A stretch of 64,000 bases of DNA from Oscillospiraceae bacterium (GTDB lineage: Bacteria > Bacillota > Clostridia > Oscillospirales > Acutalibacteraceae), in NCBI GenBank assembly GCA_902792905.1, contig CADBBH010000001.1, forward strand, positions 62,001 through 126,000, in the 5' to 3' direction. A program made the position numbers and the translations under genes. This document shows positions 40,337 through 50,143 of this stretch, piece by piece (positions within the stretch are counted from its first letter, which is position 1; each line of letters begins with the position of its first letter). Under the pieces are notes generated by a model. The model ran no database searches. It was not told the origin of the DNA and saw only the letters and a list, made by a program, of their open reading frames with translations.

Positions 40337-41014
40337 TTACAGTTCGCCTTCGCCGCTGCTCGGATAACCGCAACTGATCTCAAGGTTTCCGTTCTGTTCC
40401 CTGAGGGAATCAATGAAATTTTTAAGTGATGCACCCTGCTTCATTTGAATTTTATATGTCAGCTTATAGAGAGTTCCCATATTCGTTGTTTTCACATCGG
40501 TCATTTCACGGTAATCGGTATATTCGGCGAGCACATTTTCAAATACGCCCTCAAACTCAAGATTCTCTGGAACGGTGATTTTAAGAATTCTGAAGCCCTC
40601 TTCCTTTTTATCAAGGAACTTGCTCATAATCAGCAGGATAGCGGAAATCACGACGGCGAAAATCGCAGCTATGCCGATATATCCCATACCTGTCGCAAGG
40701 CCGACGGCCATTGCGAGGAATACCGCGGTAATCTCCTGCGCCTTGCCTGCCGCCGAGCGGAACCTGACTAAACTGAACGCGCCGGCTACGGCGACGCCCG
40801 CGCCGATATTGCCGTTTACAAGCAATATCACGAGTTGAACTATTGCCGGTATGAGTGCGAGGGTTATCGCAAAGCTCTTTGTGGTTTTTATCTGCCTTGT
40901 ATAAAGGAACGCTATTACCGCGCCGAGAAGAAGGGAAACCGCGGTGACGAGTAAAAAAGTGATTCCTGTGAATGTGCCGTTTTCGAGAACGGTTCCCAAT
41001 AAATTATCAAGCAT
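40337..41014 (-). CDS. DUF4956 membrane protein
   Basis: Four helices in residues 15-150 include the signature GNIGAGVAVAGAFSLVRFRSAAGKAQEI (about 69-96), which I recognise as DUF4956. The last 75 residues form a small cytoplasmic alpha/beta domain (ILKITVPENLEFE...). The family is of unknown function but regularly accompanies VTC-domain polyphosphate polymerase genes, as here, where it overlaps the VTC gene by 8 nt. AAGGAG precedes its ATG. Confidence 0.93.
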   Translation of the reverse strand: MLDNLLGTVLENGTFTGITFLLVTAVSLLLGAVIAFLYTRQIKTTKSFAITLALIPAIVQLVILLVNGNIGAGVAVAGAFSLVRFRSAAGKAQEITAVFLAMAVGLATGMGYIGIAAIFAVVISAILLIMSKFLDKKEEGFRILKITVPENLEFEGVFENVLAEYTDYREMTDVKTTNMGTLYKLTYKIQMKQGASLKNFIDSLREQNGNLEISCGYPSSGEGEL

Positions 41015-41762
41015 ATCTTATGACTCCTTCCTTTGTTAAAACAGGTGTAATGATTCTTGCGTTATCTCTGGTTTTCGTCGATGAAAATTCCGTATACGCG
41101 TTGCCATACTTTGAAAAACCGGAGGGATAGATTCCGTAACGGGACAGCAGGCGTGCTATTTCCAGCGGAACCGAGCCGGACACCTTCAGTTCCATAAGTT
41201 TTTCGCCTTCTTTAAGCAGCTCTTTTCCGCCGTCTCCGTAAGTCAGGTCGAGAGCGGTCGTGCGGTAGCGGATATTGTCATCGAAGGTGATTCTTAAATC
41301 CGGATCACTGTCACCGGCAAGCGCTATTCTGTCATAGCTGATAACCGCGGCGGGGCTGAGATTTTCCCAGATTTTCATAGTATAATCAATTTCATTTGAA
41401 ATCTGGTTTTTCACAGGCGAAGGCGTCCTGCCCGCGAGATAATCAAGAGCGAGGGAATAGGGCATCGAAATTCTTCTCTTATAAACTGTTCCTTTATACT
41501 TCTTCTTTATCTCCGCAAAGGCGTTTGTTTCTCTGCCGGGTATGCCGTAGGTTCTCAGACGCAGTTTCTCTTTATAGAGCGGCTTTTCGAGCGATGCTCT
41601 TATCATTCTGAAATCGGGTGTGTCATAATATATATTCATTATTTTACTTTTTCCGTATTCATCGATATGAGCTATTCCCGAAAGAGATGAGAAAAAAGAA
41701 TCGAACTGCGAAGCCGAAAGACGGTATTTTATTTCAGTTCTGGCAAAGCTGGTTTTGAACAT
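41007..41762 (-). CDS. VTC-domain polyphosphate polymerase-like protein
   Basis: The VTC/CYTH-like tunnel fold is recognisable from the opening FARTEIKYRLSASQFD, the NIYYDTPDF motif, KLRLRTYG, AFAEIKKKYKGTVYKRR and the late MELKVSG. The basic residues in these motifs line the tunnel that in yeast Vtc4 makes polyphosphate from ATP. The start is ATG 41762 with GGAG 8 nt upstream (251 residues); an upstream in-frame ATG at 41795 lacks this. First gene of the operon with DUF4956 and the Cthe_2159-like protein. A direct repeat upstream may be a Pho-type operator. Confidence 0.9.
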   Translation of the reverse strand: MFKTSFARTEIKYRLSASQFDSFFSSLSGIAHIDEYGKSKIMNIYYDTPDFRMIRASLEKPLYKEKLRLRTYGIPGRETNAFAEIKKKYKGTVYKRRISMPYSLALDYLAGRTPSPVKNQISNEIDYTMKIWENLSPAAVISYDRIALAGDSDPDLRITFDDNIRYRTTALDLTYGDGGKELLKEGEKLMELKVSGSVPLEIARLLSRYGIYPSGFSKYGNAYTEFSSTKTRDNARIITPVLTKEGVIRYA

Positions 41763-41793
41763 TTCAGTCACTCCTTCGTGTTTCTTTGACTGC

Positions 41794-41826
41794 ATAATAA
41801 CCCGCTTAACTTAAATGTAACTTAAA
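41794..41826 (-). promoter_or_regulatory. VTC operon promoter region with 11-bp phased direct repeat
   Basis: On the plus strand TAACTTAAA occurs at 41807-41815 and again at 41818-41826, an exact 9-bp repeat with an 11-bp period. Read on the minus strand (TTTAAGTTA twice), it lies just upstream of a possible -10 TATTAT (41794-41799), with no good -35. That arrangement fits activation by an OmpR/PhoB-family regulator bound at one helical turn spacing. Confidence 0.5.
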
Positions 41827-41865: not shown

Positions 41866-41894
41866 TTGACATATTTGCGATAACGTGATAAAGT
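41866..41894 (+). promoter_or_regulatory. Aromatic supraoperon promoter
   Basis: TTGACA (41866-41871), 17-nt spacer, TAAAGT (41889-41894). Perfect -35 with a moderate -10, 32 nt before the leader peptide ATG. Confidence 0.75.
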
Positions 41895-41926
41895 TATTTA
41901 CAAGATTTAAGGAAGGAGTTCCCGGA

Positions 41927-42013
41927 ATGAAACTTTCAGCAAAAGGGAATTCATATTCATACGCTTACGTTCGCTTTTTTGCGGGCTTTTATTTCCGCAC
42001 CCAAAAAGGATAA
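41927..42013 (+). CDS. Tyr/Phe-rich leader peptide of an attenuator (28 aa)
   Basis: A 29-codon frame starts at ATG 41927, with AAGGAAGGAG ending 8 nt upstream, and stops at TAA 42011. Tyr codons are at 10, 12, 14 and 22, and Phe codons at 17, 18, 21 and 23, so 8 of 14 residues in the stretch 10-23 are the end products of the operon it precedes. It is followed by a terminator (42047-42075). This is the layout of a ribosome-mediated attenuator such as pheL: ribosomes stall when charged tRNA-Tyr or tRNA-Phe is scarce and the operon is read. The peptide itself probably has no other job. Confidence 0.85.
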   Translation: MKLSAKGNSYSYAYVRFFAGFYFRTQKG

Positions 42014-42083
42014 TTTTACCGACGTAAGCAGATTAGTATAAGACCAAAGCGGTTCTGTTTCGTACGGAGCCGCTTATTTTATT
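41963..42083 (+). promoter_or_regulatory. Aromatic operon attenuator structure
   Basis: Segment 1 GCTTACGT (41963-41970, codons 13-15 of the leader peptide) is an exact complement of segment 2 ACGTAAGC (42022-42029). Segment 2 can alternatively pair through GTAAGC (42024-42029) with GCTTAT (42072-42077), which would open the 3' arm of the terminator. A ribosome stalled on the Tyr/Phe codons would cover segment 1 and free segment 2. The alternative pairing is short, so the exact switch is inferred; the components are seen directly. Confidence 0.6.
42047..42083 (+). terminator. Attenuator terminator before the aromatic operon
   Basis: AAGCGGTTCTGT (42047-42058) / ACGGAGCCGCTT (42064-42075), 12-bp stem with two G-T pairs and loop TTCGT, followed by ATTTTATT. 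It lies between the leader peptide and the first structural gene. Confidence 0.85.
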
Positions 42084-42102
42084 AAGGGAAAGGATAATGA
42101 TT

Positions 42103-43203
42103 ATGAATCCCGATATCAGCAAAGCAAGGCAGGAAATTGCAGAGGCGGACAGAAAAATCGCCGAGTATTTTGAAAAGAGAATGAACGCTGCCGCCGAAGT
42201 AGCGGCATATAAAAAGGAATACGGTCTGCCGATTGAAGATAAATTCCAGGAAGCCGCGGTAATTGAGAGAAATTCAGGATATATAAATAATAATGAAATC
42301 AAAGATTATTATTTATCCTTATGTGAGACTCTTATGGAGCTGAGCAAGAAATATCAGTTCCGTCTCAACGAGGGAACAAGGGTGGCATATAACGGCTCGG
42401 TCGGAGCATTCGCCTATATCGCGGCAACAAAGGTTTTCCCCGGCGCGCTGCCCATCCCTTACGGCTCATTTGAAAAGGCATATAATTCGGTCTGTGAAGA
42501 AGAATGCGACCTTGTTATTCTGCCGGTTGAAAACAGCTATGCGGGCGAGGTAGGAAAAGTTACGGATCTGATGTTTTCCGGTCCTTTATACGTGAACGGG
42601 GTTTATTCACTGCCTGTCAGCCATAATCTAATAGGTACACAAGGCGCATCGCTTGAGGGAATCAAAGCGGTAATCAGCCATCCGCAGGCACTGGCGCAAT
42701 GCGAGAAATATATAAAGGCGCACGGCTGGAAAACAATAGAAGCACCGAGCACCGCAGGCGCGGCTCAGACTGTCGCCGCCAACGGTGATTCCACTCTCGC
42801 GGCAATAGGCAGCGTTGAATCGGCAGAAATAAATTCTCTTGATATTCTCGCACAAGACATAAACGAAAGCAGGGACAATACAACAAAATTCGCCGTATTC
42901 TCAAGATCCTTCATACCGGAAATTCCTCTTAAAAAGAGCAGTGAATTTATAATGATGTTTACTGTCAACGATGAAGCGGGCGCTCTTGTAAAGGCGCTGA
43001 GTGTCATAGGCAAATACGGCTTCAATATGAAAGCACTCCGTTCAAGACCGGTAAAGGAAAAGGCCTGGCAATATTATTTCTATACGGAAATAGAGGGCGA
43101 CGACAATTCGGAGCAGGGAAAAGCGATGATAGCGGAGCTTACACAACAATGCGAAAAAATACGCATAATCGGTCATTTCAATGAAAGCGGGGCCGGAGAA
43201 TGA
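42103..43203 (+). CDS. pheA: Bifunctional chorismate mutase / prephenate dehydratase
   Basis: Domain 1 (residues 1-85) is an AroQ-type chorismate mutase helix bundle. Domain 2 (about 92-270) is prephenate dehydratase: VAYNGSVGAFA, VENSYAGEV, STAGAAQTVA and the catalytic TRF-type motif, here NTTKF. Domain 3 (about 280-365) is an ACT domain with GALVKAL and RSRP, where E. coli PheA has GAL and ESRP for Phe feedback. The enzyme gives phenylpyruvate. I prefer ATG 42103 (AAAGG at 9 nt) over ATG 42097 (spacing too short). First gene after the attenuator; it overlaps aroB by 4 nt. Confidence 0.95.
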   Translation: MNPDISKARQEIAEADRKIAEYFEKRMNAAAEVAAYKKEYGLPIEDKFQEAAVIERNSGYINNNEIKDYYLSLCETLMELSKKYQFRLNEGTRVAYNGSVGAFAYIAATKVFPGALPIPYGSFEKAYNSVCEEECDLVILPVENSYAGEVGKVTDLMFSGPLYVNGVYSLPVSHNLIGTQGASLEGIKAVISHPQALAQCEKYIKAHGWKTIEAPSTAGAAQTVAANGDSTLAAIGSVESAEINSLDILAQDINESRDNTTKFAVFSRSFIPEIPLKKSSEFIMMFTVNDEAGALVKALSVIGKYGFNMKALRSRPVKEKAWQYYFYTEIEGDDNSEQGKAMIAELTQQCEKIRIIGHFNESGAGE

Positions 43204-44210
43204 TAATCGAAGCAAATGGATACGATATCATAATTGAAAAGGGCTGTCTTGACAGAGCGGGAGATTATCTGCCCGCGGACAGAAAGACGCTTGTGGTTAC
43301 AGACAGCGGAGTTCCGGCGGAATACGCGAAGAAAGTTCTTTCCTTCTGCGGCGAAGGATCGCTGATAAAGACGATTCCGCAGGGTGAGGAGAGCAAGAAT
43401 TTCGATATTCTCAGGGATTTGCTCAAGACTATGCTCGATGCGGGATTCACGAGGCGCGACTGCGTAACGGCAGTCGGCGGAGGGGTAGTCGGCGATTTAT
43501 CCGGCTTCGCGGCTAGTATATATATGCGCGGAATAGATTTTTACAATATTCCGACCACTCTGCTCTCGCAGGTGGATTCCTCGGTCGGCGGCAAGACCGC
43601 GATTGACTTTGAGGGAGTCAAGAATATTGTTGGCGCGTTTTATCCGCCGAAGCATGTGCTTATTGACGAAAATGTGCTCTCCACGCTGCCGCTCCGTCAG
43701 CTCAACAACGGGCTCGCGGAGGCACTTAAAATGGGAATGACGAGCGACAGTGAGCTCTTTGAAATATTTGAAAACGGCAACCCTTATGAGAGCATTGAAG
43801 CGATTATAGAAAAATCGCTGCTCATAAAGACGGATGTAGTTAATAAGGACGAAAAGGAGCAGGGACTGCGCAGAGTTCTGAATTTCGGACATACAATCGG
43901 CCACGGAATAGAGGCGGAGCAGGCCGGCGCACTTTATCACGGCGAGTGCGTCGCAATCGGAATGATTCCGATGTGCTCATCCGAAACGGCAGGTAGATTA
44001 AAAACAATTCTTGCAAAGCTCGGTCTGCCCTCTTCGTGTGAGGGTGACGTAGAAAAGATTTACGAAGCGATGCTCCACGATAAGAAAAGCGGTAAAGAAA
44101 GTATTACCGCGGTATTTGTTGACGAGCCCGGCTTATTCAGATTTGAGGAAGTATCGCCGGATTCATTAAAAGAAAAAATCAGGACAGTTGTAAGGGGGAA
44201 GAATCAATGA
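43200..44210 (+). CDS. aroB: 3-dehydroquinate synthase
   Basis: AroB cyclises DAHP, the second shikimate step, using NAD and a divalent metal. Visible blocks are the NAD loop VGGGVVGDLSGFAASIYMRG, PTTLLSQVDSSVGGKTAID, the metal ligand Glu in GLAEALKMG, and the metal His residues in NFGHTIGHGIE and YHGECVAIGM. At 336 residues it is near normal length. Its ATG overlaps the pheA stop (ATGA) and its 3' end overlaps aroC by 4 nt, so translation is coupled on both sides. Confidence 0.97.
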   Translation: MIIEANGYDIIIEKGCLDRAGDYLPADRKTLVVTDSGVPAEYAKKVLSFCGEGSLIKTIPQGEESKNFDILRDLLKTMLDAGFTRRDCVTAVGGGVVGDLSGFAASIYMRGIDFYNIPTTLLSQVDSSVGGKTAIDFEGVKNIVGAFYPPKHVLIDENVLSTLPLRQLNNGLAEALKMGMTSDSELFEIFENGNPYESIEAIIEKSLLIKTDVVNKDEKEQGLRRVLNFGHTIGHGIEAEQAGALYHGECVAIGMIPMCSSETAGRLKTILAKLGLPSSCEGDVEKIYEAMLHDKKSGKESITAVFVDEPGLFRFEEVSPDSLKEKIRTVVRGKNQ

Positions 44211-45298
44211 AAAACACATTCGGCTCAAGCGTTTCTGTTACGCTTTTCGGCGAGAGCCACGGCGAATGTATCGGCGCTGTGATTGACGGTCTCGCTCCCG
44301 GAATTGCGGTCAACGAAAAATTTATCTCATCCCAACTTTCCCTTCGCAGACCCGCCGGCAAAACGGGCACCAAAAGAGTTGAAAGAGACAATTTCAGCAT
44401 CGTCAGCGGAGTATTTGAGGGCAGAACAACCGGCACGCCTCTGTGCATTATCATCCCCAATGAAAACGTAAAGAGCGCGGACTACGCCCTGAATTCATTT
44501 ATTCCGAGACCCGGCCACGCCGATTTCACCGCGAACAAAAAATATCACGGCTATGAGGATTACAGGGGCGGCGGACATTTCAGCGGCAGACTTACCGCGG
44601 CGCTGGTCGCGGCAGGAGCGATAGTCATCGACGCTCTCAGGAGCAAAGATATATATATCGGAACTCACATATTAAGGTGCGCAAAAATCAACGACAGGCG
44701 TTTCAAGAATCTCAAAGACGATATAAACTATCTGAATAAGCAGAAATTTGCAGTGCTCGACCCGGAGAAAGCGGAGCCTATGCAGGCAGCAGTCAAAGAG
44801 GCCGCGGCGCAGGGCGACAGCGTGGGAGGAATCCTGGAAACCGCTGTCATCGGTCTTCCTGCGGGAGTCGGCGAGCCCTGGTTTGACACACTTGAAGGAA
44901 CGCTCTCACATGCTCTTTTTTCAATCCCTGCGGTCAAGGGAATTCAGTTCGGAAACGCTTTCAGGGACATAGATCTCAGAGGCAGCGAATATAACGACGC
45001 GTTTACCATCAAAGGCGACAGGATTGAGACGAAGACCAACAGAAACGCGGGAATCAACGGCGGAATAACGAACGGTATGCCGGTCATTTTCTCGCTCGCG
45101 GTAAAGCCCACGCCTTCTGTTTTCACAGAGCAAAAATCGGTTGACCTGATGCAGATGAAGGAGACAGAGCTGAAGATTTCGGGCAGACACGACCCTGCAA
45201 TCATTCACAGAGCAAGAGTAGTCGTTGACTCCGTGACGGCACTTGTTATTGCCGATATGCTCGCTCAGAGATACGGCACCGATTATTTGGGAGAATGA
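44207..45298 (+). CDS. aroC: Chorismate synthase
   Basis: AroC makes chorismate from EPSP with reduced FMN. The signatures GESHGECIGAVIDGLAPGI (about 14-32), RPGHADFTANKKYHGYEDYRGGGHFSGRLTA (about 102-132) and the late GRHDPAIIHRARVVVDS are all present; conserved His residues in GESHG and GRHDP are intact. At 363 residues it is full length. It overlaps aroB by 4 nt and ends 1 nt before aroA. Confidence 0.97.
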   Translation: MKNTFGSSVSVTLFGESHGECIGAVIDGLAPGIAVNEKFISSQLSLRRPAGKTGTKRVERDNFSIVSGVFEGRTTGTPLCIIIPNENVKSADYALNSFIPRPGHADFTANKKYHGYEDYRGGGHFSGRLTAALVAAGAIVIDALRSKDIYIGTHILRCAKINDRRFKNLKDDINYLNKQKFAVLDPEKAEPMQAAVKEAAAQGDSVGGILETAVIGLPAGVGEPWFDTLEGTLSHALFSIPAVKGIQFGNAFRDIDLRGSEYNDAFTIKGDRIETKTNRNAGINGGITNGMPVIFSLAVKPTPSVFTEQKSVDLMQMKETELKISGRHDPAIIHRARVVVDSVTALVIADMLAQRYGTDYLGE

Positions 45299-45299
45299 T

Positions 45300-46505
45300 A
45301 TGAGAGCGGAATTTTTACCCTCACACATCAGTGGAAGAATCACGGCTCCGCCCTCAAAGAGCGAAGCTCACAGAGCGATTATCTGCGCCTGTCTGGCAGA
45401 CGGCGTAAGCCATATAGATAATATTGAGTATTCTAATGATATACTCGCTACGGTAAACTGTATGCGGTCGCTCGGTGCGGAGATTGAAACCGACAAAGAC
45501 TCCCTGACAGTCACAAATCCCGTCTCCGGGAGAGAATACGCAAAGCTCGACTGCGGAGAGAGCGGCAGCACACTGAGATTTCTTATTCCGCTCGCCGTCA
45601 ACCTCTGCGGTGAATGCGAATTCACGGGCAGCGGCAGGCTTATGGAAAGGCCGCTGACTGTATATGAGGATATATTCGGCACCTGCGGCGTTGAATATTC
45701 AAGAGACGTCGGGGTTCTGAAGGCCGTGGGGAAAATTCCCGCGGGCTGTTATACGCTCGCCGGCAATATCAGCAGCCAGTTTATAAGCGGACTGCTCTTT
45801 GCCCTTCCACTCACAGAAGCCGACAGCACTTTAATTATCTCTCCCCCGTTTGAATCAAAGCCGTATGTTGATATGACTCTGGATACGCTTTCCGCTTTCG
45901 GAATCAAAGCGGAATTCGGAGAAGAAAATATGATTTTCATAAATAAAGGAACATATAAAGGCAGAAATATCAAAGTGGAGGGCGACTGGTCAAACGCGGC
46001 GTTTCTCGAAGCGTTCAATCTCGCCGGCGGAAACGTGGTCGTTGACGATCTTGATGACGAAAGCCACCAGGGGGATAAGATTTACAGGGAATTCTTCAAA
46101 ATAATGCAACGCCCGCTCGCGCGGATAGATCTTACCGACTGCCCCGATTTAGGTCCCGTCTGCATGGCTCTCGCCTACCGGAACGGTGCTGAATTCAGCG
46201 GCACCGCGCGCCTTAAAATCAAGGAGAGCGACAGAACCGCGGCAATGGCGCAGGAGCTCGCAAAATTCGGAATTGCGACACAGGAGAGCGAGGATACTTT
46301 CACTGTTTTCCCGTCTGAAATCCACGCGCCCGTTTCTCCTCTCAATTCTCATAACGATCACAGAATCGTAATGGCACTCTCTGTATTATGCACAGTTACC
46401 GGCGGCGTAATCGACGGCGCCGAAGCCGTTTCAAAGAGCTTTCCGTCATTTTTTGATAATATAAAATCACTCGGAGCAGAGGTGAAATTATATGAAACTG
46501 CTTAA
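45300..46505 (+). CDS. aroA: 5-enolpyruvylshikimate-3-phosphate synthase
   Basis: AroA joins shikimate-3-phosphate and PEP. Blocks seen are APPSKSEAHRAII (residues 15-27), LDCGESGSTLRFLIPLA (about 81-97), the TLAGNISSQFISGLLFALPL region, and KIKESDRTAAMAQEL (about 310-324). I use ATG 45300 (401 residues), just past the aroC stop with GGGAG upstream. The 3' end overlaps tyrA by 14 nt. Confidence 0.96.
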   Translation: MRAEFLPSHISGRITAPPSKSEAHRAIICACLADGVSHIDNIEYSNDILATVNCMRSLGAEIETDKDSLTVTNPVSGREYAKLDCGESGSTLRFLIPLAVNLCGECEFTGSGRLMERPLTVYEDIFGTCGVEYSRDVGVLKAVGKIPAGCYTLAGNISSQFISGLLFALPLTEADSTLIISPPFESKPYVDMTLDTLSAFGIKAEFGEENMIFINKGTYKGRNIKVEGDWSNAAFLEAFNLAGGNVVVDDLDDESHQGDKIYREFFKIMQRPLARIDLTDCPDLGPVCMALAYRNGAEFSGTARLKIKESDRTAAMAQELAKFGIATQESEDTFTVFPSEIHAPVSPLNSHNDHRIVMALSVLCTVTGGVIDGAEAVSKSFPSFFDNIKSLGAEVKLYETA

Positions 46506-47349
46506 CACTCAGAATGTGATGATAATCGGCCTGGGTCTTATGGGCGGCAGCTACGCCAAGGCACTCAAGCGGCTCGATTTTCATATTTCGGCAACAGACA
46601 CAAACGCCGATTCCATTGAATACGCCCTTGAAAACGGCATTATCGATGAGGGATATACCTCGCCCGACCCCGATGCTCTTGGGAAAGCCGATATAGTGAT
46701 ATTCGGCCTTTATCCCAATGTTTTCAAACGGTGGATTGCCGAAAACCAAAAGTATTTCAAGAGCGGAGCGATCATCACCGATGTAACGGGTGTAAAGAGC
46801 TGTATAGTATATGATATTCAGAACATACTGCGTGATGATGTTGAATTCATAGCGGCTCACCCGATGGCAGGACGCGAGGTTTACGGAGTCCGCAACAGTA
46901 CTGAAAAAATGTTCCGGGATGCGAATTTCCTTGTAGTTCCCACAGAAAAGAACTCCGAGGAAGCGATAGAATGGTGCAAGGAAATGGGCAGACTTCTCGG
47001 ATTTATCAACGTGACGGTCCTCTCCCCTGAAGAGCACGATAAGATGATAGGCTTTGTCTCTCAGCTGACTCACTGTATAGCAATTGCGCTGATGACCTGC
47101 TCTGACAGCACCCATCTCGCGGACTACACAGGCGATTCCTTCAGGGATCTTACCAGAATCGCGAATATCAATGATAAAATGTGGAGCGAGCTTTTCCTGC
47201 TGAATAAAGAACCGCTCCTCGCAGATATGGACAGATTCATTTCGGAGATGCAGACTATGCGCTCTCTGCTTGCAGAAGACAACCGCGAGGGACTCAGAGA
47301 AAAAATGCGGCTTTCAACTCAACGCAGAGCCGCATTCAATAAGAAATAA
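46492..47349 (+). CDS. tyrA: Prephenate dehydrogenase
   Basis: TyrA oxidises prephenate to 4-hydroxyphenylpyruvate for tyrosine. The NAD motif GLGLMGGSYAKAL lies at residues 12-24, with AHPMAGREVYGVRN (about 123-136, holding the catalytic His) and the C-terminal helical domain including GDSFRDLTRIA. At 285 residues it is a monofunctional form without a chorismate mutase or ACT domain, so tyrosine feedback on this protein is not evident; the operon attenuator may carry that role. It overlaps aroA by 14 nt. Confidence 0.95.
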   Translation: MKLLNTQNVMIIGLGLMGGSYAKALKRLDFHISATDTNADSIEYALENGIIDEGYTSPDPDALGKADIVIFGLYPNVFKRWIAENQKYFKSGAIITDVTGVKSCIVYDIQNILRDDVEFIAAHPMAGREVYGVRNSTEKMFRDANFLVVPTEKNSEEAIEWCKEMGRLLGFINVTVLSPEEHDKMIGFVSQLTHCIAIALMTCSDSTHLADYTGDSFRDLTRIANINDKMWSELFLLNKEPLLADMDRFISEMQTMRSLLAEDNREGLREKMRLSTQRRAAFNKK

Positions 47350-47362
47350 GGAGATAATAAAA

Positions 47363-48394
47363 ATGAGTATGAATATGGTTTTTGATAAAAAACTCCCGAT
47401 ACCTATGGAGGTTAAGGAGATGTATCCGGTTTCCGTCTCGGTTCAGCAGACGGTTGAGCAGAAGGTGGCACAGCTCAAGAAAATCATCGCGGGCGAGGAT
47501 GACCGCTTTCTGCTGATAGTCGGCCCCTGTTCCGCCGACTGGGAGGAGAGCGTTCTGGATTATGTCCACCGCCTTGCTCCCGTTCAGGAGAAGGTTAAGG
47601 ATAAAATAATGATTATCCCGAGAATCTACACCAATAAACCGAGAACCACCGGCGCGGGATATAAAGGAATGCTCCATCAACCCGACCCGACCGCAAAGCC
47701 GAATCTCTTCGCGGGAATCATCGCTATCAGAGAACTTCATATGAAAGCGGTCAGCGAGACGGGTCTTATCTGCGCAGATGAAATGCTCTATCCAAGCAAT
47801 CACAAATATCTCGATGATATTATCGGATATGTAGCAATCGGTGCGAGAAGCGTTGAAAACCAGGAACACCGCCTGACAGCGAGCGGTATAGATGTTCCTG
47901 TCGGAATGAAAAACCCGACAGGCGGCGACATCGAGGTAATGATGAACGCAATCACGGCAGCTCAGGGAAGTCATCACTTCATCTATCGCGGATGGCAGGC
48001 AAAATCCATGGGCAACCCTTACGCTCACGCGATTCTCAGAGGCTATATGAATAAGCACGGCAACGCCCTTCCGAATTACCATTATGAGGATCTTGTTTTC
48101 GTAAACGAAAAATATCTTGCGGCAGGTCTTCAGAATCCCGCCGTCATAGTTGACTGCAATCATTCGAATTCGGGCAAGCAATATCTTGAACAGATAAGGA
48201 TTGCAAAAGAAGTAGTCAGCAGCAGAGTATATAACCCCGATATAAAGAAACTCGTCAAAGGACTTATGATTGAGAGCTATATTGAGGACGGATGTCAAAA
48301 GGGCAACAGCGAATACGGTAAATCAATCACCGACCCATGCCTCGGCTGGGAAAAGACGGAAAAGCTCATCTACGACCTTGCGGATATACTCTGA
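47363..48394 (+). CDS. aroF: 3-deoxy-7-phosphoheptulonate synthase (AroG/F type)
   Basis: This enzyme starts the shikimate pathway by joining PEP and erythrose-4-phosphate. It follows the E. coli AroFGH type: GPCSADWEESVLDY, PRIYTNKPRTTGAGYKGMLHQPD, GARSVENQEHR, GMKNPTGGD, and the metal-binding VIVDCNHSNSGK with a late EDGCQKG. At 343 residues it has no separate regulatory domain. The usual GPCSIHD reads GPCSADW. ATG 47363 is chosen because AAGGAG lies just ahead; a longer in-frame extension overlaps tyrA. Confidence 0.95.
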   Translation: MSMNMVFDKKLPIPMEVKEMYPVSVSVQQTVEQKVAQLKKIIAGEDDRFLLIVGPCSADWEESVLDYVHRLAPVQEKVKDKIMIIPRIYTNKPRTTGAGYKGMLHQPDPTAKPNLFAGIIAIRELHMKAVSETGLICADEMLYPSNHKYLDDIIGYVAIGARSVENQEHRLTASGIDVPVGMKNPTGGDIEVMMNAITAAQGSHHFIYRGWQAKSMGNPYAHAILRGYMNKHGNALPNYHYEDLVFVNEKYLAAGLQNPAVIVDCNHSNSGKQYLEQIRIAKEVVSSRVYNPDIKKLVKGLMIESYIEDGCQKGNSEYGKSITDPCLGWEKTEKLIYDLADIL

Positions 48395-48407
48395 TAGGAT
48401 GAATAAA

Positions 48408-49631
48408 ATGTTCGGTTTACTCGGAAAAAAGCTCTCGCACTCTCTTTCACCCGAGATTCATTCGGTTTTCGGCGACTATGAATATAAACTTTTCGAGCGG
48501 GAAGAAAATGAACTTGACGCTTTCTTCGCCGATACATCAATCGACGCCTTCAATGTTACAATCCCGTATAAGGTTGAGGCATATAAAAGATGCGATGTGC
48601 TAGACGAAACAGCGCGGGTAATAGGAAGTGTAAATACGGTTGTGCACAAAGGCGACAGGCTTTACGGCTATAACACCGATCTCTACGGCTTCGAATATAT
48701 GGTTAAAAAACTCGGCGCGGATTTTGCCGGAAGGAAGGTTCTCATACTCGGTAGCGGCGGTGCAAGCAAGACGGCGGTCGCATCTTCAAATCGTCTTGGC
48801 GCAAAGGAAACGGTCATAATAAGCCGAAGCGGCGAAAATAATTATGATAACCTTGAAAAGAATTATGATGCCGGAATTATCGTCAACACAACACCCGTCG
48901 GTATGTTCCCGGGAAACGGAAAAGCACCGCTTGAATTAAAATATTTCAAAAATATTGAATTTGTCATAGATTTGATATATAATCCCTGTATGACCGCGCT
49001 CCTACTGGAAGCAAAAAAGCTTGGGATTCCGTTTATCAACGGTATGCCGATGCTGGCGGCTCAGGCACTTCGCTCGGCGGAGCATTTCTTCTCAAAGGAA
49101 TTTGACAATTCTCTTATTGACAAAGCAGTCAAAAGAATAAGCGACAATATGAAAAACATCGTACTCATCGGTATGCCCGGATGCGGCAAGACTACTCTCG
49201 GAGCATATCTAGCTTCAAAAGCGGGCAGGGAATGTGTTGATACGGATGACATTATCGTACAAAAAGACGGGCGGAAAATTCCCGATATTTTCACTGACAG
49301 CGGCGAGAATTATTTCAGGGATATCGAGAGCGAAGCTGTTGCAGAATGCGGAAAACGGCTCGGAATAATAATTGCAACAGGCGGCGGAGCGGTAATGCGC
49401 GAAACAAACAGGAACGCCCTCGCGCAGAATGGTATCATCATCTATCTCAAGCGCGATCTTGAGTCTCTCGCGACTGGCGGAAGGCCGCTCAGCGCCGGCG
49501 AAAACGCCGTTTATGAAATCTTCAAAAAACGCAAAGACACTTATGAGAACTTTGCGGATTATATAATTGAGGTTGACCGTGATGTCGCAATCACGGCGGA
49601 AAGGTTGTTAAAATGCGTATCCTTGTATTGA
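48408..49631 (+). CDS. aroE/aroK: Fused shikimate dehydrogenase and shikimate kinase
   Basis: Residues 1-245 are shikimate dehydrogenase (GKKLSHSLSPEIH, NVTIPYK with the catalytic Lys, GYNTDLYG, NADP loop ILGSGGASKTA, NTTPVGM). Residues from about 247 on are shikimate kinase (Walker A GMPGCGKTTLG, the DTDDIIV strand, ENYFRDIESE with the shikimate-binding Arg, TGGGAVMRE, and a GGRPL lid). The frame is open throughout, so it is a true fusion doing steps 4 and 5. I start at ATG 48408 (AGGA at 8 nt); ATG 48399 is possible. It overlaps aroQ by 19 nt. Confidence 0.95.
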   Translation: MFGLLGKKLSHSLSPEIHSVFGDYEYKLFEREENELDAFFADTSIDAFNVTIPYKVEAYKRCDVLDETARVIGSVNTVVHKGDRLYGYNTDLYGFEYMVKKLGADFAGRKVLILGSGGASKTAVASSNRLGAKETVIISRSGENNYDNLEKNYDAGIIVNTTPVGMFPGNGKAPLELKYFKNIEFVIDLIYNPCMTALLLEAKKLGIPFINGMPMLAAQALRSAEHFFSKEFDNSLIDKAVKRISDNMKNIVLIGMPGCGKTTLGAYLASKAGRECVDTDDIIVQKDGRKIPDIFTDSGENYFRDIESEAVAECGKRLGIIIATGGGAVMRETNRNALAQNGIIIYLKRDLESLATGGRPLSAGENAVYEIFKKRKDTYENFADYIIEVDRDVAITAERLLKCVSLY

Positions 49632-50143
49632 ACGGTCCGAACATGAATCTGCTCGGCATCAGAGAAAAAGACATTTACGGCGAGAATTCCTACAAAGAGC
49701 TCTGCAAAATGATTGAAAAGAAAGCGGATGAACTCAATGTATATGCCGATATGTATCAGTCAAATCATGAGGGCGACCTGGTTGATAAGATTCAGGAGGC
49801 ATATAAGGGAATCGACGGCATAATCATCAATCCCGCCGCATATACCCATACCAGCATCGCAATTCTCGACGCTTTGAAAACGGTCCAGAAACCTACTGTC
49901 GAGGTTCATATCACCAATCTTAAGGAAAGAGAGGAATTCAGACAGATTTCCTACGTCGGCATGTATGCTGAAAAGACAATAATGGGAAAGGGTTTTGACG
50001 GTTATATCGAAGCACTCGAATATCTTGTTGAAAAGCTCAGCGCCATAGAAGCGGAGAAAGAGAAGCAGAGAGCCGAGGAAAGAGAAAAAGAGAGAGCGGC
50101 TCAGGCGGCAGCTGCGGCCGAAGCCCCTGCTGATAATCAGTAA
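49613..50143 (+). CDS. aroQ: Type II 3-dehydroquinate dehydratase with charged tail
   Basis: Residues 1-143 match the type II dehydroquinase: ILVLNGPNMNLLGIRE with the catalytic Tyr shortly after (DIYG), QSNHEGDLVDKIQ, INPAAYTHTSIAI and VEVHITNLKEREEFR. It dehydrates dehydroquinate, the third shikimate step. The last 33 residues form an unusual Glu/Lys/Arg then Ala-rich tail, predicted helical. It is the last gene of the operon, closed by a terminator at 50150-50174, and starts inside the aroE/aroK gene. Confidence 0.96.
   Translation: MRILVLNGPNMNLLGIREKDIYGENSYKELCKMIEKKADELNVYADMYQSNHEGDLVDKIQEAYKGIDGIIINPAAYTHTSIAILDALKTVQKPTVEVHITNLKEREEFRQISYVGMYAEKTIMGKGFDGYIEALEYLVEKLSAIEAEKEKQRAEEREKERAAQAAAAAEAPADNQ

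Follow-up and report, generated by a model that had tools for sequence, protein, structure and literature searches.

The short leader ahead of a complete shikimate-Phe-Tyr operon in this bacterium is, in our judgment with high probability, an attenuator of transcription that works through the ribosome and responds to the charging of tRNA-Tyr and tRNA-Phe. This is a prediction from the DNA of the window, by which we mean the whole stretch of 64,000 nucleotides that was analysed, and from the leaders of its relatives. A preliminary description had proposed such an attenuator and the leader is very probably of this kind. As judged by sequence comparison, the leader ORF, the terminator and two possible pairings that share one segment (A:B and B:C) are kept as a set in relatives.

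In our working model RNA polymerase would start near 41901, as judged from the promoter, and a ribosome would enter the 28-codon leader. Scarcity of Tyr- or Phe-tRNA would make the ribosome stall on codons 10-21 and cover segment A, leaving segment B free for segment C, which would block the terminator and allow the eight-gene operon to be transcribed. When both tRNAs are charged, the ribosome would be at the stop codon (42011) with B partly covered, and when there is no translation A would tend to pair with B. With B occupied by the ribosome or by A, C would more often pair with arm 4 and transcription would end at about 42080. We infer transcription and translation of the leader, stalling of the ribosome and the dominance of Tyr or Phe.

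The leader and the operon behind it

The leader peptide, MKLSAKGNSYSYAYVRFFAGFYFRTQKG, has Tyr at positions 10, 12, 14 and 22 and Phe at positions 17, 18, 21 and 23; at the sequence level it is a translatable ORF with control codons for the product of the operon. Among short ORFs (10-65 aa, both strands, whole window) it is the sole one with at least eight F/Y in 14 residues. The 28-residue frame with four Tyr and four Phe in residues 10-23, the ribosome binding site and the 12-bp terminator had all been reported in the preliminary description, and each is present (Table 1). The terminator-like stem has 12 pairs (42047-42075), is followed by ATTTTATTAA and lies between the leader ORF and pheA. 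Folding of the leader, a check that had been suggested, placed 41900-42090 at 3.9 sd below dinucleotide shuffles, with 0 of 200 shuffles as good. In several relatives the Shine-Dalgarno sequence of the leader is GAAGGAG or GAAAGGAG, and a TTGAC plus -10-like pattern also occurs upstream of four other leaders (L002, L003, L005 and L010, by eye).

Table 1. Positions of the leader elements, the operon genes and the divergent neighbor in the window
Feature	Position	Strand	Basis or remark
Promoter-like TTGACA-17-TAAAGT, TG ahead of -10	41866..41894	+	sequence inspection
Shine-Dalgarno AGGAAGGAG	41910..41918	+	read from sequence
Leader ORF MKLSAKGNSYSYAYVRFFAGFYFRTQKG	41927..42013	+	28 aa; conserved among relatives
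Segment A (arm 1), Tyr codon region GCUUACGUU	41963..41971	+	predicted partner of B
H1 hairpin GUUCGC-U6-GCGGGC, coding VRFFAG	41969..41986	+	putative pause role
Segment B (arm 2) CCGACGUAAGCAGA	42019..42032	+	whole stretch predicted to pair with C
B sub-stretch GACGUAAGC	42021-42029	+	predicted partner of A
Segment C (arm 3) UCUGUUUCGUACGG: terminator 5' arm end, loop and 3' arm start	42054..42067	+	
Intrinsic terminator (arms 3:4) and U tract	42047..42083	+	
pheA, chorismate mutase-prephenate dehydratase with ACT domain	42097..43203	+	
aroB	43200..44210	+	
aroC	44207..45298	+	
aroA	45300..46505	+	
tyrA, prephenate dehydrogenase	46492..47349	+	
DAHP synthase (aroFGH type)	47363..48394	+	
aroE-aroK fusion	48399..49631	+	
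aroQ, type II 3-dehydroquinate dehydratase	49613..50143	+	
VTC-domain gene, divergent from leader	41007-41795	-	

The genes behind the leader had been said to make Phe and Tyr, and the operon is indeed complete: its eight genes cover the steps from DAHP to chorismate and the enzymes of both branches, with one leader ahead of them all. Adjacent genes overlap or are less than 15 bases apart (with start codons of our choosing), and no transaminase was seen within the eight-gene operon. The ACT domain of the window pheA scores just under the Pfam cut-off. On the other side of the leader, and divergent from it, VTC-domain and DUF4956 proteins adjoin each other (40337-41795, minus strand).

Leaders of this kind in relatives

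Protein searches with pheA were carried out on 60 relatives and then on 394 genomes of the order, upstream regions were fetched and 105 of these were used. From the 30 loci of the first search 19 were kept (L004 and L011 are cut by contig ends and L022-L030 are of low identity), and the second contributed 27 new loci and 59 fetched regions, with matches weaker than about 1e-77 and the incomplete starts of G270 and G312 left out. We then filtered for an ORF of 10-65 aa with a Shine-Dalgarno sequence, at least six F/Y/W per 16 residues and a terminator of -12 kcal/mol or lower before pheA, by criteria that were fixed after a first look at the data and run on all 105 regions. The attenuator reading is supported by the outcome: an aromatic-rich leader with both signals was found in 23 of 105 regions, window included, whereas the same filter passed 0 of 105 when the regions were reverse-complemented and 1 of 315 when they were dinucleotide-shuffled. 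Some of the 82 failing regions have pheA close behind an unrelated gene (by eye, uncounted), and the filter missed the MYINRFYYYSYTDCLC leaders seen at first look. The core of the window leader (VRFFAG or a variant, by eye) is present in 11 of the 23 (L001, L002, L003, L005, L010, L015, L016, L018, L021, L168 and L191, with an identical peptide in L015 and L016); the remaining 12 have other architectures, for example MFFFEYAYFYYFKKDCALL.

Further leaders came from scans with other tools. A pattern scan of public genomes gave 82 stretches, mostly chance matches, of which ten were judged genuine by eye (peptide plus terminator): the window's own leader, five already known and four new ones of the core type (L111, L127, L131 and L133) that precede pheA-aroB type operons (downstream genes by eye). 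In a scan of the 394 genomes 4 of 21 matches were genuine, the window's own among them. A CM search of the class matched 62 of 391 genomes at E 0.01; beyond the window, only two tandem matches in G469 were accepted, and no core-like ORF was found in 28 further loci from the CM search (L139-L166). The one match in a scan of viral contigs lies in a long frame and was rejected as a leader. Taken by family, leaders with the core or a diverged core occur in at least six: f1, f14 (L191), f16 (L168), f18 (L040, L041), f20 (L246) and f27 (G469), with G469 outside the window's order. A search of f27 gave matches in 3 of 99 genomes at E 1e-6, G469 being one of them. The two new ones carry other aromatic leaders with terminators, FFYDAFFGFYFGGYFYGAF and FRTYFYYYFYFTF, ahead of genes that resemble DAHP synthase (L254 and L255, by eye).

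Leaders that do not precede pheA plausibly all have targets linked to aromatic amino acids. L040 and L041 each have a core-type leader before a gene, the leader region being about 1200-1650 in gene sense; the gene in L041, to which alone the assignment applies, encodes a PF04392 ABC substrate-binding (ABC_sub_bind) protein, and its position would predict a Phe/Tyr transporter. In G469 (L138 / L253:1-843) two leaders with terminators stand in tandem (90 and 60 bits) before an AMP-binding gene followed by an ACT-domain-pair protein. We read the AMP-binding gene as a relative of phenylacetate-CoA ligase (PaaK); two attenuators in series would be an uncommon arrangement for an arylacetate gene.

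The core coincides with an 18-nt hairpin, H1 (GUUCGC-UUUUUU-GCGGGC), that recurs in the leaders of many relatives. Pairing is kept in the variants GUCCGC/GCGGGC (L040, L041), GCUUGC/GCAGGC (L138b, where Arg is changed to Cys) and AGCCGA/UCGGCU (L246); the loop of L138a is three longer (by eye), one pair is mismatched in L018, L021 and L131, and H1 is broken in L191. The search pattern that yielded L111, L127, L131, L133, L040 and L041 requires the core, so these six are uninformative on how well it is conserved. Among the 11 leaders reached through pheA (L001, L002, L003, L005, L010, L015, L018, L021, L168, L191 and L246, of which L001-L003 are close relatives), Arg is encoded by CGC in 10 of 11, Ala by GCG in all nine that have Ala and the second Phe by TTT in 10 of 11. 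In 12 window genes AGA is preferred to CGC (104 to 43) and TTC to TTT (128 to 73). That synonymous sites of the core are largely fixed, against the codon usage of the window, points to selection on the RNA. We considered H1 as the antiterminator and rejected it, since its match to the 5' arm of the terminator is lost in L005 and L131 (by eye).

The same sites bear on the possibility that the nascent VRFFAG peptide, possibly together with free Phe or Tyr, arrests the ribosome in the manner of TnaC. When distant leaders are compared, no part of the peptide is better conserved than RFFAG (some of them found by a pattern demanding RFFAG), but fixation of synonymous sites in the 11 pattern-independent leaders is as expected under selection on RNA and not on peptide, the peptide varies where the hairpin is kept (ACFFAG in L138b, RFIGF in L246) and the residues ahead of the leader stop differ between relatives (by eye). 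We regard peptide arrest as unlikely.

Still less probable is a leader sensed through tRNA or protein (a T-box, TRAP-like or metabolite riboswitch leader) in which the ORF is incidental. Such a leader would account for folding better than that of shuffles, and in the B. cereus group, according to the available text of PMC2494555, Tyr biosynthesis is under T-box control. However, runs of aromatic codons recur in leaders of unrelated architecture, and no Rfam 15 family, T-box included, gave a gathering-score match in the window or in 80 of the 105 related loci. A leader under TRAP control carries some eleven GAG/UAG triplets in close succession; in the window leader there are only three [GT]AG triplets.

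Apparently unrelated designs of aromatic leader plus terminator stand before pheA within one order, for example MFFFEYAYFYYFKKDCALL, MYINRFYYYSYTDCLC and ..SKYFFSFSVAFYFGYAYF.., the loci of differing designs being L207, L212, L219, L221, L228; L183, L189, L193, L204; L012, L177; and L013, L167, L170, L210, L222, L227, L247 (the designs of L177, L183, L189, L193, L204 and L247 come from the first-look scan only). This diversity suggests that Phe/Tyr attenuators have arisen repeatedly or turn over fast.

Within the class of the window leader, Tyr and Phe interchange at aligned control positions and Phe prevails: core position -4 is aromatic in 14 of 15 leaders (4 Tyr, 10 Phe) and position -2 in 12 of 15 (3 Tyr, 9 Phe; both by eye). 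The leader of L191 has seven Phe and no Tyr. The window had been described as having a dual Tyr/Phe leader; since Tyr is not universal in the class, 'Phe/Tyr' is the safer label.

Predicted alternative pairings that share segment B

The exact complements GCTTACGT (41963-41970) and ACGTAAGC (42022-42029) had been put forward as the elements of a switch. Their positions are exact, but they would form the 1:2 anti-antiterminator stem; the candidate antiterminator, which had not been named, is 42019-42032 with 42054-42067 and is exclusive both with the terminator and with the 1:2 stem. Predicted duplex energies in the window are -14.3 (A:B), -16.1 (B:C) and -18.0 kcal/mol (terminator).

We located 19 leaders, of which 15 are non-redundant (L002, L003, L015 and L040 were dropped), and took B as the stretch after the core, A as the codons just before the core and C as the end of the terminator 5' arm plus the loop. 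The segments of B used for A and for C overlap by at least 10 nt in 11 of the 15. When B was shuffled, the A:B duplex was matched by at most 15 of 300 shuffles in 8 of 15 leaders and the B:C duplex in 10 of 15. A column-wise count on a MAFFT alignment somewhat supported A:B together with H1 and the terminator (89.2% paired vs 86.4%; 1 of 500 shuffles) and did not support B:C (73.3% paired vs 72.3% in shuffles, with covariation not above shuffles); the RNAalifold consensus contained H1 and the terminator and lacked A:B. We tentatively ascribe the column-wise failure of B:C and the missing A:B to register slips between leaders.

Partner permutation was run after the column-wise tests with segment limits unchanged from the shuffle test. 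Cognate partners gave a total of -216.3 for A:B, compared with -175.4 (sd 10.5) for permuted ones, and only 1 of 20,000 permutations was as low; for B:C the totals were -262.3 and -212.1 (sd 10.3), with 0 of 20,000 as low. This test is not wholly independent, since some of these leaders had already been looked at when the pairing was first conceived by eye. The cognate partner was the best one in only 3 of 15 leaders per stem (combined rank p 0.038 for A:B and 0.020 for B:C), and L138b and L018 fail for A:B, with L138b failing for B:C also. It had been suggested that relatives be checked for aromatic codons and stems; both are kept, and cognate pairing that beats permuted pairing for both alternative stems strengthens the case for an attenuator.

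We also folded each leader as it would stand once C but not yet arm 4 has been transcribed, barring the bases under the ribosome from pairing; 'stalled' here means a ribosome on an F/Y/W codon between core positions -7 and +2. Across the 15 leaders (footprint 15/13) the mean expected number of B:C pairs was 13.6 when stalled, 9.4 with no ribosome and 4.3 with the ribosome at the stop codon. At three footprint sizes all 15 leaders had more B:C when stalled than with the ribosome at the stop codon, part of the gap arising because the stop codon is near B, a closeness that the mechanism requires. Stalled B:C exceeded that of the no-ribosome state by more than 0.5 pair in only 10 of 15 leaders (11 with the smallest footprint), and A:B without a ribosome was nearly absent in L005, L018, L021 and L246 and weak in L131, L138a and L138b. 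In this folding model, then, a stall at the control codons frees arm 2. For the window the expected B:C pairs were about 15 for stalls from Y10 to F21, 13 at Y22 and 11 at F23; a ribosome at the stop codon allowed 9, and with no ribosome there were 7. Full B:C also resulted from stalls at Q26 and K27. Since stalls from Y10 to F21 give full B:C, shortage of Tyr and of Phe should both act; since nine pairs persist at the stop codon (more than the seven without a ribosome) and Q26-K27 stalls give full B:C, repression in the window is predicted to be partial. The sizeable B:C that the modelled window leader keeps, whether the ribosome is at the stop codon or absent, would suit a constitutive leader in which the short ORF and terminator merely set a fixed level of expression. 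This is very improbable given that several families, and unrelated genes with an aromatic link, show the aromatic run, the alternative pairings and the association with aromatic genes again.

Coupling in Bacillota and comparison with known systems

The classing of Bacillota as a phylum with runaway transcription would weaken a ribosome-mediated switch. The source cited for this phylum-level assignment, reference 10 of PMC13323073, is presumably Johnson et al. (2020). That work is described in the available text of PMC7858274, and the assignment of runaway transcription to Bacillota phylum-wide is made in the available part of PMC13323073. If the attenuator works, ribosome and polymerase would be coupled over at least the window leader, though the phylum is classed as uncoupled in that part of PMC13323073, and the generality of uncoupling thereby becomes directly testable. 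A working attenuator in Bacillota would be an exception to runaway transcription or would need a pause, and H1 with the U-rich codons after it resembles a polymerase pause and may be one. We put forward, tentatively and at less than even confidence, that Clostridia have in this leader a portable module for Phe/Tyr attenuation, with H1 as a dedicated pause at which RNA polymerase awaits the ribosome, enabling attenuation despite runaway transcription. The conserved H1 hairpin is for us the main interest of the leader.

No Phe/Tyr leader attenuator in Clostridia was among the matches listed in our literature search, most subscription literature being outside its scope. The preliminary description was unaware of a leader of this sort in the group; His leader-peptide attenuators of Clostridia have been published (PMC9413887, available text). 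Aromatic amino acids would join the few amino acids with predicted leader-peptide attenuation in Clostridia.

Ribosome-mediated attenuation through a leader peptide is textbook for E. coli and enteric pheA. Like that system (pheL), the window has an aromatic-rich leader, predicted 1:2, 2:3 and 3:4 stems and a terminator before a chorismate mutase-prephenate dehydratase gene; unlike it, the window has codons for Tyr as well as Phe, a complete eight-gene operon, an extra conserved hairpin within the ORF and no Rfam leader match. Attenuation of pheA is named in the available text of PMC1183508.

In Bacillota or their wall-less relatives, predicted or evidenced attenuation is described for His (PMC2965389, PMC9413887), Leu/Ile (PMC5794164) and Phe (PMC8632094), in each case in the available text, to which the following comparisons also refer. 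The His attenuators of Eubacteriales, Erysipelotrichales and the B. cereus group (PMC9413887) share the predicted mechanism with the window and differ in having His codons and his operons. The Leu attenuator of S. aureus ilv-leu (PMC5794164), which is backed by mutants, and the His leader of bacilli hisS*/hisZ (PMC2965389) are likewise leader-peptide attenuators of Bacillota, for other amino acids and in other classes. The uORFC-13-1 motif of Acholeplasma aroF (PMC8632094) is, like the window leader, a predicted Phe-sensing uORF with a terminator before a shikimate gene outside Proteobacteria; by its description it is set apart, occurring in Acholeplasma and environmental sequences only, before aroF only and with a U run that codes at least one Phe.
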